From Clostridia bacterium (GTDB lineage Bacteria > Bacillota > Clostridia > Christensenellales > Borkfalkiaceae), in assembly GCA_017465145.1 (NCBI GenBank), contig JAFTWU010000005.1, positions 19,394 through 83,393 of the forward strand: DNA of 64,000 nt. The letters run 5' to 3'. Made by a program: the position numbers and the translations under genes. A model generated the notes under the pieces. It was given only the letters and a program-made list of their open reading frames with translations, did no database searches and was not told where the DNA came from. Of this stretch, positions 52,974-55,311 are shown in pieces (position 1 is the stretch's first letter; every line of letters starts with the position of its first letter).

Positions 52974-53411
52974 ATGAAGAAAATTTTAAAAGGATTTACA
53001 ATGGTGCTAGTTCTTATTTGTACTGCTATGTCGTTTGCGGGCTGTATGAAAATTGACTGGGTGAGTGCAGGCGATAAGCTTATCAACAAGGGGTTTGATG
53101 TGCACTCAGAGACTGATATCGACGATATTGAGTGGTATCTTGAAGATTGTTTGATAAACGGTGACTCAATAGTTGTTGCGCCCGAAGACGTAAATCGTTT
53201 ATTGATAGCTGAAAAAAGAGGTGATACTGCTATTCTTTTTGTAGTGTTCTGTAAAAATGAGGATGCAGCTAAGAGAGTTGAAGAAAGATGTGAAGAAATA
53301 AGAATTGAGTTTGCTTATGAATTTTATATGAGTGCAGACGATGTTAAATGTGGCAGAGATGGCAAGGTTGCTTACATTGGTCATAAAGATGCAGTAAAGG
53401 CTGCAAAATAA
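52974..53411 (+). CDS. small lipoprotein of unknown function
   Basis: This is a 145-residue protein. ATG 52974 follows AAGGAG. The signal peptide MKKILKGFTMVLVLICTAMS ends at lipobox FAGC. The mature part is acidic and alternates strands and helices (DIEWYLEDCL, AILFVVFCKNEDAAKRVEER); I do not recognise a family. GC content is lower than around it. It is paired with the divergent XRE gene. Its terminator is immediately followed by the tRNA-tail array. Confidence 0.75.
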   Translation: MKKILKGFTMVLVLICTAMSFAGCMKIDWVSAGDKLINKGFDVHSETDIDDIEWYLEDCLINGDSIVVAPEDVNRLLIAEKRGDTAILFVVFCKNEDAAKRVEERCEEIRIEFAYEFYMSADDVKCGRDGKVAYIGHKDAVKAAK

Positions 53412-53424
53412 TTATTAAACACAA

Positions 53425-53455
53425 AAAAGGTGGCGAAAAGCCACCTTTTAATTAT
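53425..53455. terminator. bidirectional terminator
   Basis: The perfect stem AAAAGGTGGC/GCCACCTTTT with loop GAAAA ends the lipoprotein gene and, on the minus strand, follows the tail of unit 1 of the array. Confidence 0.8.
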
Positions 53456-53458
53456 TAA

Positions 53459-53571
53459 TGGTGCGGAAGGGGGATAAAGGGACTTGCTCCGTAACCTGCG
53501 GTTACTATCACGCCCACTCGCTAAAATATGCGGAGCAACGCATATTTCTTAACGCTCGCGTTCAAGTCCCT
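53459..53571 (-). repeat. tRNA-Leu-tail structured unit 1
   Basis: Read on the minus strand: AGGGACTTG (53478-53486 complement) pairs with CAAGTCCCT, enclosing hairpins AAATATGCG/CGCATATTT and GTAACC/GGTTAC. The unit ends with the tRNA-Leu 3' end CAAGTCCCTTTAT...CCGCACCA, here interrupted by 7 extra bases. Positions 53475-53571 are identical over 97 bp to 53810-53906 (unit 3). A terminator hairpin (53425-53455) follows its tail. Confidence 0.75.
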
Positions 53572-53586
53572 AAACAACATAAAGCA

Positions 53587-53617
53587 AAACAAGGCGACCA
53601 AAAAGGTCGCCTTGTTT
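53587..53617 (-). terminator. hairpin after the tail of unit 2
   Basis: AAACAAGGCGACC/GGTCGCCTTGTTT is a perfect 13-bp stem with loop AAAAA. On the minus strand it lies 5 nt after the CCA of unit 2. Confidence 0.7.
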
Positions 53618-53621
53618 CACT

Positions 53622-53736
53622 TGGTGCGGATAAAGGGACTTTCGCTCTGTGGCGACCATACCCGACAAACAGTTCACAGGACTGTTTGCCCTACGGGAAA
53701 TTGCCAAAGCAATTTTCTCCCTATTCAACTCCCTTT
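53622..53736 (-). repeat. tRNA-Leu-tail structured unit 2
   Basis: TGGTGCGGATAAAGGGACTT (53622-53641) is the complement of the tRNA-Leu 3' end. The outer stem AAAGGGA/TCCCTTT (53632-53638 and 53730-53736) encloses two hairpins: CAAACAGT/ACTGTTTG (53666-53688) and AAATTGC/GCAATTT (53698-53715). The inner sequence differs from units 1 and 3 but the architecture is the same. Confidence 0.7.
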
Positions 53737-53757
53737 TTTATTTACACATAACAAAAA

Positions 53758-53800
53758 AAGAGTTCCACAACAAACCTTTCGGTTCGTTTTAGAACTCTTT
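53758..53800 (-). terminator. hairpin after the tail of unit 3
   Basis: AAGAGTTC/GAACTCTT encloses a smaller AACC/GGTT stem; on the minus strand it is followed by a T run. Confidence 0.65.
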
Positions 53801-53907
53801 TGGTGCGGATAAAGGGACTTGCTCCGTAACCTGCGGTTACTATCACGCCCACTCGCTAAAATATGCGGAGCAACGCATATTTCTTAACGCTCGCGTTCAA
53901 GTCCCTT
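53801..53907 (-). repeat. tRNA-Leu-tail structured unit 3
   Basis: TGGTGCGGATAAAGGGACTT (53801-53820) copies the tRNA-Leu 3' end exactly. The outer stem AAGGGACTTG/CAAGTCCCTT (53812-53821 and 53898-53907) is perfect. Inside are GTAACC/GGTTAC (53826-53840) and AAATATGCG/CGCATATTT (53859-53882). 97 bp are identical to unit 1, implying recent duplication. Confidence 0.75.
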
Positions 53908-53924
53908 ACACATTAACTACAAAA

Positions 53925-53965
53925 CAAAAAACTCAAACCAAGCAAAAGCCTGATTTGAGTTTTCT
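53925..53965 (-). terminator. intrinsic terminator of tRNA-Leu
   Basis: On the minus strand AAAACTCAAA/TTTGAGTTTT with an inner imperfect stem is followed by TTG. It lies directly after the tRNA CCA. Confidence 0.75.
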
Positions 53966-53967
53966 GT

Positions 53968-54050
53968 TGGTGCGGATAAAGGGACTTGAACCCCCACGGT
54001 CTCCCACTAGATCCTAAGTCTAGCGCGTCTGCCAATTCCGCCATATCCGC
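53968..54050 (-). tRNA. tRNA-Leu (TAG anticodon)
   Basis: This is an 83-nt class II tRNA with encoded CCA. The acceptor stem is GCGGATA/TATCCGC, the anticodon loop CTTAGGA carries TAG (reads CUA), a long variable arm is present, and the T loop is TTCAAGT. Downstream on its own strand lie three structured units each ending with a copy of its 3' end. Confidence 0.95.
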
Positions 54051-54141
54051 ACTCTGCCCTAAAAACAAGGGCAATTCACATTTTATCACAAATTTAATAA
54101 AAGTCAAACGATTTTAACCGTTTATTTCATTTTTAATTAAC

Positions 54142-55311
54142 TTAAATTATCAACATATGGTTTTCGTTAGCCTTTCCACCCGTTGCCAAGTTATAAAGGT
54201 CGTTTGCCAAAACGTCTATTTCAAAGCAATTTTTAGCCGTCTTTTTAAGTTTATCGCAGTCGCTTTTTCTAGTAAGCAGGGGAACGGAACTCTTTTCAGC
54301 AATTACGGATAGTAAATCCATACTTTCTTTTTTAACCGCCAAAACCTTAGCGTAAAGCGGTTCTTTTAAGCACTCGTCGGTAAAATCTTTGGTAATGCCA
54401 AGCATATTTGCTATAAGTATGCGCCTAACTCTTGCAGAAGAATATCGTTTGGTAGATACCTTTTCTATCAAGCCGTCTAACGTTTTATTATCCTTACAAA
54501 GTGCTTTAATGCGGTTTTCTAATCCTTCGGTGCAATCGGGCACTTTAGCCATTTGTTCGGCGGGGGTTGTGATAGCGTGCGCCAAAATCATTTTTTCAAA
54601 ACCAAATGGATAAACGCAGTTTTTAATATCTTCAAACACAAACGGGGGAAGGTTGCCTTTCGTTTTTTTCGCAAGCCCAGATTTTACCGCGCTACGAATA
54701 CTAGTCGCGCTAGTTACACCCTTTTTCAAAACTCCGTCGTTATGGTCGCCCGTGCGAATCATAGGGTAAATTTCAACGGGGTTATCGTATAAAAGGGTGG
54801 CTTTGGTATATTCTAAACCTAAAATATTATTTGGCAAAGAAATTAATTCTTCGTCGTGTTCGCCACTTTTAATAGCGTTAAACTTTGCTTTCGCTAGTGA
54901 AACGCCGTTTGCAAGGTTTTCTTTTAGAGCGCGCTTAAACTCTTTGCTTTCGTTATTCATTGCGGTTGCAAGGCTAACGTATTCTTGCTTTTTGCCACTT
55001 TCTACACCAAAACACAAGCCGTCTACCACGTTAAGCCCGTTTATAACTTTAACGCCACCTTTAGCAAATACTTCTGCATTAGCCGTTGCAAAAACGGTGG
55101 GTAGTTCTATAACCACGTCCGCCCCCGCTAAAATAGCGTGCTTAGCGCGGGTGAACTTGTTTAAAATAGCAGGTTCACCGCGTTGGCAAAAGTTACCGCT
55201 CATAATAACGATAAGTTTTTCCGCACCTAGCGTCTTTTTAATATACTCTAGGTGTTTCAAATGCCCCAAGTGAAAGGGATTATATTCAGTTATACACGCG
55301 CAAATTTTCAT
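54142..55311 (-). CDS. tmcAL: tRNA(Met) cytidine acetate ligase TmcAL (YlbM)
   Basis: This is a 389-residue protein. The nucleotidyltransferase start is CACITEYNPFHLGHLKHLEY, then VIMSGNFCQRGEPAILNKF and GADVVIELPTVFATANAE. In Bacillus it forms N4-acetylcytidine at the wobble position of elongator tRNA-Met, using acetate and ATP. An adjacent acetate-producing pair (pta-ackA) is divergent. AAGGGG lies about 15 nt before the ATG, a long spacing. Confidence 0.92.
   Translation of the reverse strand: MKICACITEYNPFHLGHLKHLEYIKKTLGAEKLIVIMSGNFCQRGEPAILNKFTRAKHAILAGADVVIELPTVFATANAEVFAKGGVKVINGLNVVDGLCFGVESGKKQEYVSLATAMNNESKEFKRALKENLANGVSLAKAKFNAIKSGEHDEELISLPNNILGLEYTKATLLYDNPVEIYPMIRTGDHNDGVLKKGVTSATSIRSAVKSGLAKKTKGNLPPFVFEDIKNCVYPFGFEKMILAHAITTPAEQMAKVPDCTEGLENRIKALCKDNKTLDGLIEKVSTKRYSSARVRRILIANMLGITKDFTDECLKEPLYAKVLAVKKESMDLLSVIAEKSSVPLLTRKSDCDKLKKTAKNCFEIDVLANDLYNLATGGKANENHMLII

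Follow-up and report, generated by a model that had tools for sequence, protein, structure and literature searches.

What kind of element is formed when the 3' end of a tRNA gene is repeated downstream of it, each time closing a small folded unit? The question is raised by the array behind tRNA-Leu(TAG) in the window analysed here, a stretch of 64,000 nucleotides (G000:C5:19394-83393) from a Clostridia bacterium with a genome of 1.51 Mb (G000, the home genome). tRNA genes are classic landing sites for phages and islands, and phages, ICEs and IMEs equipped with a tyrosine recombinase target them with crossover in the T-loop. The first-pass annotation of the locus had offered three readings: a non-autonomous integrating element, a SINE-like RNA with a tRNA tail and a transcribed tRNA mimic. 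In our analysis the units represent a real and conserved family, absent from Rfam 15, and the most fitting reading is that of insertion cassettes without genes, placed at tRNA 3' ends.

The whole array lies on the minus strand, in the order tRNA-Leu(TAG) (53968..54050), three modules and a closing terminator-like hairpin (53425..53449, from the terminator scan). Each module consists of a spacer (a hairpin with a T-run), X', a core and X, where X is a copy of the tRNA from C56 of the T-loop to CCA (53988-53968 in the gene itself) and X' is the reverse complement of the T-arm. Nearest to the tRNA, the spacer of module 3 carries a terminator-like hairpin (53923..53967; inverted repeat I3 and terminator scan) and is followed by unit 3 of family A (53809..53910; model match of 81.9 bits), which reads X' (53907-53895), P2, the junction GGCGTGATA, P3, GGAGC and the right arm, and is closed by an intact X copy, C56 to CCA, at 53801..53821. 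Module 2 comprises a spacer with a T-run hairpin (53752..53800, inverted repeat I2), unit 2 of family B (53632..53735, from an alignment with 16 relatives) and its closing X copy (53622..53641). Module 1 has a terminator-like spacer (53582..53622, terminator scan), unit 1 of family A (53474..53575) and an X copy interrupted by a 6-base insertion (53459..53486). The modules measure 163-179 bp and carry no gene. The terminator scan lists sites behind the tRNA, unit 2 and unit 1 (7 sites in total; shuffles 0.9), while the hairpin behind unit 3 is absent from that list and appears as inverted repeat I2. The sole promoter-like site listed at 53400-54200 (shuffles 1.2) is placed upstream of the tRNA, at 54080..54107 on the minus strand, and the consensus scan gave none before the units of the window.

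The layout described previously, three tRNA-tailed units on the strand of tRNA-Leu(TAG), was confirmed by exact repeats of a 20-base piece of X at 53622 and 53801 (chance expectation 0.00) together with the interrupted copy ending at 53459, and a distinct T-run hairpin does stand behind every tail, as had been claimed. Some of the measures required correction: the CCA-to-CCA distances are 167, 179 and 163 bp instead of 165-177 bp, and the sequence shared by units 1 and 3 extends over 100 identical bases, not 97. An outer T-arm stem enclosing two perfect hairpins was recovered for units 1 and 3 only; unit 2, judged by eye, has three hairpins and an outer stem with one mismatch, which the minimum-energy fold shows uncleanly. 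All three units fold better than nearly all of their shuffles (z of -3.23, -2.32 and -3.33 for units 1, 2 and 3, respectively). The statement that structure rather than sequence is conserved is only partly borne out: unit 2 owes its different sequence to its membership of another family, and within family A the sequence is conserved as well.

Family A was defined by the A2 consensus of 33 sequences, in which P1 (X' paired with X), P2 with one or two hairpins, the junction GGCGTGATA, P3, GGAGC and the right arm follow each other and the core forms a three-way junction. Loss of the paired arms among homologues had been named as an outcome adverse to the original description; in these sequences all three helices covary. 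Paired cells make up 88.2% of the A2 helices, both sides are changed in 127 cells and 0 of 500 shuffles are as high, with a covariation score of 0.410, compared with 0.135 for shuffles and no more than 0.091 for slid structures. The source scan for A2 used an exact pattern, many matches of which are due to chance; since the pattern imposes them, GGCGTGATAGT, ACGGAGC and GAAC are invariant in A2, and other copies have the junction variants AGCGTGATAG and GGCGCGATAG. Of 55 candidates, 48 remained once duplicates and the candidates of six loci, rejected by eye, had been taken out, and 33 of the 48 entered A2; the alignment A3 was built from 83 chosen sources. Reduced cores, in which X' and X enclose either P2 or P3 alone, were observed in L223, L224, L312, L313 and L314.

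Named records among the matches listed in the pattern scan belong to Clostridia, Paenibacillus and Cohnella, and the core motifs are common to Paenibacillaceae and distant Clostridia. Model R1 recovered 5 units and two noise-level matches in the home genome, and 1-15 matches per genome, at E up to 0.05, in 28 genomes chosen as carriers of the pattern. The strict pattern occurs in 11/301 genomes of the window's own family, its own genome included. With Rfam 15, at the gathering score as well as permissively, tRNA alone came above threshold in the window and in 11 loci searched with intron RNA families included. We found no report of such elements in literature judged by titles and the beginnings of abstracts, with subscription papers mostly outside that scope. 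No BLAST match was returned for one Paenibacillus unit in phages or plasmids, or for unit 2 in plasmids. Viral contigs contained 8 stretches fitting the pattern, of which L176 alone passed the arm test and was dismissed as chance.

How closely are the units tied to tRNA genes? A same-strand tRNA stands within 600 bp upstream of 75 of the 108 distinct model hits, and 13 amino-acid types are represented (nearest upstream tRNA Ser in 25, Leu in 20 and Arg in 14, with ten other types besides). Copies thus recur beside tRNAs in related genomes, as the proposed search was to establish, but not beside tRNA-Leu alone. A tRNA was present within 1 kb of 76 hits, the nearest one sharing the strand of the hit in 75 cases (71 upstream, 4 downstream), and 32 hits fall in loci with no detected tRNA, many of these loci being short or cut off at contig ends. 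In the non-redundant arm set (54 of the 75 units), 8.35 of 10 left-arm positions match the reverse complement of the unit's own tRNA (shuffled 6.80, maximum of 1000 runs 7.17) and 9.11 right-arm positions match the own tRNA (shuffled 6.95, maximum 7.37); the misregistered rows L074 and L230:504 were retained, which lowers the arm score. The cassette strand is the tRNA strand and P1, built from X' and the right arm, follows the T-arm of the local tRNA. That the left arm trails the right one is expected if the target supplies X and X' follows.

The junctions point to a preferred position. The direct repeat starts at C56 in 31/43 first units, at +1 in 3, at -4 in 2 (the first units of L107 and L110) and elsewhere in 7; in L107 and L304 it reads GGTTCGAATCCC in place of GGAGCGAATCCC. 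As X mostly runs from C56 to CCA, the tRNA remains whole. In 26 of 39 first units an exact copy of the final nine tRNA bases stands at the unit end, with sequence beyond, and in 11 none was found. In 29/43 first units the repeat passes CCA by 25 nt; after subtraction of 5 that are spacer-only and 8 below 90% identity, 16/43 run at least 25 nt beyond CCA at no less than 90% identity. L111, L139, L251, L109 (second) and L050, with one detected unit each, have repeats of 55-75 bp at 94-100% identity, which start at C56 (9 bases earlier in one case) and reach the trailer end or stop close to it, so that the trailer is mostly or wholly doubled, tRNA-[X-spacer]-X'-core-[X-spacer]. X alone is doubled in other loci, e.g. 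L045, L098, L156 and L167.

Of the three original readings the integrating element fits best, on account of the many tRNAs used, the presence of each tRNA's own 3' end, a mostly uniform start in the T-loop and the tandem modules. Overall, the former interpretation is partly supported. The tRNA mimic is weak, as the unit folds, unlike a tRNA-like RNA, have no 5' acceptor strand, the tail is inexact in the 11 first units mentioned and no promoter-like site accompanies the units. Simple decay of tRNA genes, also considered at first, leaves the conserved core unexplained. Our preferred explanation, to which we assign slightly less than an even chance, is that the units are non-coding, structured, non-autonomous insertion cassettes, for which the tRNA 3' end serves as attachment site and which spread into tandem arrays via X. 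The integrated form would be tRNA - [X - spacer] - X' - core - [X - spacer] and the mobile form a circle {X, spacer, X', core} recombining at X with the tRNA 3' end, a step modelled on tRNA-targeting integrative elements. The folded tRNA-sense strand, with P1 present, would be needed for recombination or for some other step, arrays could grow by exchange between X copies, and after a move to another tRNA X' might regain complementarity through selection or template switching. The 12/43 first units which start off C56 and the loss of P2 or P3 in L312, L313 and L314 count against this cassette model.

In the home genome the survey covered 35 of the 36 tRNA hits, two of which have under 100 bases of sequence behind them. 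Leu(tag) and Glu(ttc) have direct as well as inverted T-arm copies nearby, and Lys(ctt) has a direct copy ending its unit, which sits behind another module. The copy at tRNA-Lys shares 94% identity with units 1/3 over 66 bases and the one on contig C11 shares 97% over 68 bases; the right arm and tail of the tRNA-Lys copy are those of tRNA-Lys itself. All five A units of this genome can be assigned to tRNA arrays, two of them by inference. The first of these two, with a tRNA-Glu tail, is located about 4 kb downstream of tRNA-Glu, and the intervening DNA contains a frame 77% identical to the end of a relaxase, a protein matching AbiLi and a frame with no match. The second follows a tRNA-Leu(caa) tail, with an element carrying a Mob_Pre relaxase and a tyrosine recombinase in between; this element seems to run from contig C10 to C11, a join suggested by eye, on the basis of a repeat protein broken at both ends. 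Two observations concern DNA outside the window: L367:1941-4041 (G000:C5 about 125840-127940) encodes an AAA_21 protein, with AbiLi as the best PADLOC match, within a decayed element in the tRNA-Glu array, and L368 (G000:C10:1-5000), apparently together with the end of G000:C11, represents an integrative element behind tRNA-Leu(caa). Integrative elements evidently land on the same tRNA ends and displace the arrays. Their presence at tRNA-Leu(caa), and that of a decayed relative behind tRNA-Glu, would suit the idea that the units are scars of decayed integrative elements or tRNA genes with no mobility of their own; however, the same covarying core is found in distant genera and its conservation already disfavours scars, which makes this origin very improbable.

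The order of modules gives mixed indications on how an array is built. The spacer AAAGAGTTC.. touches tRNA-Leu in relatives (nearly identical in G007 and G017) and in the window stands between unit 3 and unit 2, which suggests that the unit-3 module entered on the tRNA side; in G035, where no unit is visible, the tRNA is followed by this spacer too, and this counts against that order. Among relatives, 22 of 30 tRNA-Leu loci were read, and in four of the 22 (G001, G024, G029 and G035) no unit was seen by eye within 560 bases. The cassette model meets a difficulty here, because insertion at X puts the native spacer last, yet AAAGAGTTC.. precedes the unit in several relatives; the spacer seems native to tRNA-Leu, and the conflict would be void if it arrived with the cassette. 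Unit 1 and L003, an A unit on contig C11, have both the unit and a very similar preceding spacer in common, which suggests that the two may move together as one piece. The units of L107 are preceded by three spacers of identical sequence, and the spacer at the end of this array is different; some arrays contain tandem near-identical modules.

Unit 2 was aligned with 16 units of the genus (A4), mostly taken from loci fetched via tRNA-Leu(TAG), with one from behind the home tRNA-Glu and one on a short contig with no detected tRNA. This family B keeps P1 and X and differs in its core, with GGAGAAAATTTGC.., CCCGTAGGG and a last hairpin, e.g. GGTCGC-ACA-GGCGA, which varies in step as judged by eye. 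Still further core types stand behind other tRNAs. Several cores thus share one address. Behind tRNA-Leu(TAG) in L264 (G032), L269 (G005), L279 (G039) and L285 (G015) a recurrent sequence, CGTC..AGCAAG.. to ..CTGCTCTTCC.., directly follows CCA and is perhaps another core type, and in L258 (G009) a cluster of TATGTAAT/ATTACATA repeats lies between tRNA-Leu(TAG) and an X remnant. A wider claim, which we put forward as rather doubtful, would see in all this a gene-less cassette system of Bacillota, with tRNA genes as an integron-like platform, the T-loop as insertion point, X'/X as a single-stranded recombination site on the tRNA-sense strand, unrelated cores sharing the address and X' re-copied or re-selected for each tRNA.

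Does the fold act in DNA or in RNA? A different explanation holds that the tRNA trailer contains, in the unit, a structured RNA with a function of its own in processing, sensing or as a decoy; a P1 built from the T-arm would be part of its fold, and selection on this function would maintain the copies. We consider it unlikely, although it deserves slightly more weight than the remaining alternatives. It accords with the strong covariation of the helices and with tandem G.A pairs. These are common in P3 and, in roughly a dozen units, also take the place of Watson-Crick pairs within the left arm (column 12 reads GA in 12 units, column 14 AG in 11). Such pairs stabilise the tRNA-sense strand only and thus indicate this strand. 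The ratio of G.T to A.C is likewise 25 to 2 in P2, yet it is reversed in P3 (6 to 11) and P1 (21 to 29) and amounts to only 52 to 42 over all helices. Among 67 distinct P3 sequences there are 29 triloops (12 of them GNA), 4 GNRA, 4 GNYA and 22 other tetraloops; these loops appear to resemble DNA hairpins more than RNA, in a sample that is small and non-independent. A terminator-like hairpin intervenes between tRNA and unit in 29/43 first units (shuffled 3.85), with 5-22 nt left before the unit, and this, like the patchy distribution (a match in 17/148 genomes of the Paenibacillus family) and the lack of promoter-like sites before the units of the window, speaks against an RNA function. The other 14/43 spacers have no such hairpin by the rule applied (L139 among them looks terminator-like by eye), and there tRNA and unit may share a transcript. 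On balance we lean towards a role of the unit at the DNA level.

Under the cassette model a recombinase would have to act in trans, supplied either by visiting integrases of tRNA-targeting elements or by a resident Xer-type enzyme. The genomes surveyed for candidate enzymes, 31 carriers (home genome included) for reverse transcriptase, Y1 transposase and Cas1 and 15 for tyrosine recombinase, were chosen, not drawn. No reverse transcriptase (PF00078) was found in 18/31 carriers, no Y1 transposase (PF01797) in 26/31 and no Cas1 (PF01867) in 26/31, the home genome being among those lacking each, and 13, 5 and 5 carriers, respectively, have one; as necessary partners these three enzymes are unsupported. 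A tyrosine recombinase hit was obtained in 14/15 carriers. The home genome has five, all of them off contig C5, in agreement with the earlier remark that the window holds no recombinase gene. G056 (95% complete) and G359 have a single hit each, XerS-like by the best NCBIfam match though under its cut-off, and G353 has zero; these three carriers count against the cassette model, and the survey as a whole leaves a resident Xer-type enzyme, visiting integrases or no enzyme at all. Against the integron integrase model TIGR02249 (cut-off 265), the four proteins tested scored 55-71 bits (recombinases of G000, G056 and G359) and 52 bits (the IME enzyme). A shared mobility gene near the units was sought among 547 reading frames of 51 chosen loci and no recombinase-like cluster was seen by eye, the clusters present in at least 3 loci coming mainly from orthologous Paenibacillus loci. 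In G016, a truncated unit behind tRNA-Leu(TAG) has a GIY-YIG nuclease frame next to it (L288:503-979 minus); this is a single case and was set aside. That the searches of viral contigs, phages and plasmids yielded no real unit also weighs against mobile cassettes.

If no dedicated enzyme is involved, template switching and homologous exchange at T-arm palindromes or repeated tRNA ends might have produced the arrays, the core being an old sequence spread in this way. X, spacer and X' do form long palindromes in several genomes, well suited to template switching, and the tandem near-identical modules, as well as a carrier (G353) with no tyrosine recombinase hit, agree with such an origin. Nevertheless, a core present in Paenibacillaceae, in distant Clostridia and at many tRNAs exceeds local duplication, and the usual start at C56 is left unexplained, so we hold this explanation rather unlikely.

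Copying through RNA would be another route: the core RNA, joined to the 3' end of the tRNA transcript, would be reverse transcribed and inserted behind the tRNA terminator. The five repeats of 55-75 bp, which reach the end of the trailer or nearly so, resemble a transcript 3' end, and Cohnella panacarvi provides a suggestive case. Ten copies of the unit in this species (L218-L222, L225-L229) are embedded in a longer dispersed repeat of roughly 0.9 kb with an internal tandem repeat of about 40 bases, the unit being near its start, up to about 60 bases away. Nine of the ten repeats start close 3' of a terminator-like hairpin on the same strand, L220 following a T-run only (by eye), and nine of the ten copies have no tRNA in the fetched flanks, yet keep a tail resembling tRNA-Ser. 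As 8 reverse transcriptase hits were counted in this genome, the longer element may owe its spread to a retro-copying step. These dispersed copies count against the cassette model. The distribution of PF00078 given above, with 18 carriers, the home genome among them, lacking the enzyme, argues against retroelement-like copying as the general mechanism, as it does against the SINE-like reading, which requires a reverse transcriptase; the DNA-like P3 loops point in the same direction, and we regard this mechanism as improbable.

The cassettes share features with several known systems and differ from each. With tRNA-targeting integrative elements they have in common the tRNA 3' target, the direct repeat from T-loop to CCA, the restored tRNA, the same orientation and the tandem arrangement, but they are gene-less, with no integrase gene of their own and 163-179 bp per module in the window, and they have an inverted T-arm copy, a three-way-junction core and one core family at many tRNA types. 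Integron gene cassettes are small and stand in tandem at a fixed site, their attC sites having foldable paired outer arms with the boxes RYYYAAC and GTTRRRY (R'/R''). Our units are likewise small tandem modules with paired foldable arms behind a fixed site; in contrast, that site is a tRNA gene, the modules have no reading frame, the four proteins tested include no integron integrase, and by eye the attC boxes do not fit A2 (left TTCGAAC, right GAGCGAA). Casposons are reported (PMC9939771) to insert at tRNA 3' ends beside the T-loop with target duplications, 15 bp in A. boonei, and to form tandem arrays. The resemblance lies in insertion near the T-loop, duplications and tandem arrays, whereas casposons carry cas1 and polB and Cas1 is missing from most carriers here. 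Group IIC introns insert directly behind terminator hairpins, and most Cohnella copies seem similarly placed, but Rfam detected no intron RNA in the 11 loci and most of the carriers lack a reverse transcriptase. REP/MITE-type palindromic elements are, like the cassettes, small, non-coding and hairpin-rich and are mobilised in trans; unlike them, the cassettes are tied to tRNA genes, have arms fitted to each tRNA and mostly occur in carriers with no Y1 transposase.

Obtained results indicate that a small, conserved, gene-free folded element resides at tRNA genes in many Bacillota genomes, some of which are only about 1 Mb as assembled, and that its arms adapt to each tRNA. If it acts as RNA, it would represent a tRNA-gene-linked RNA family outside Rfam 15. 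Should it prove mobile, it would rank with the smallest site-specific elements that have a conserved architecture of their own, and would provide a natural test of how a recombination site follows a changing target.
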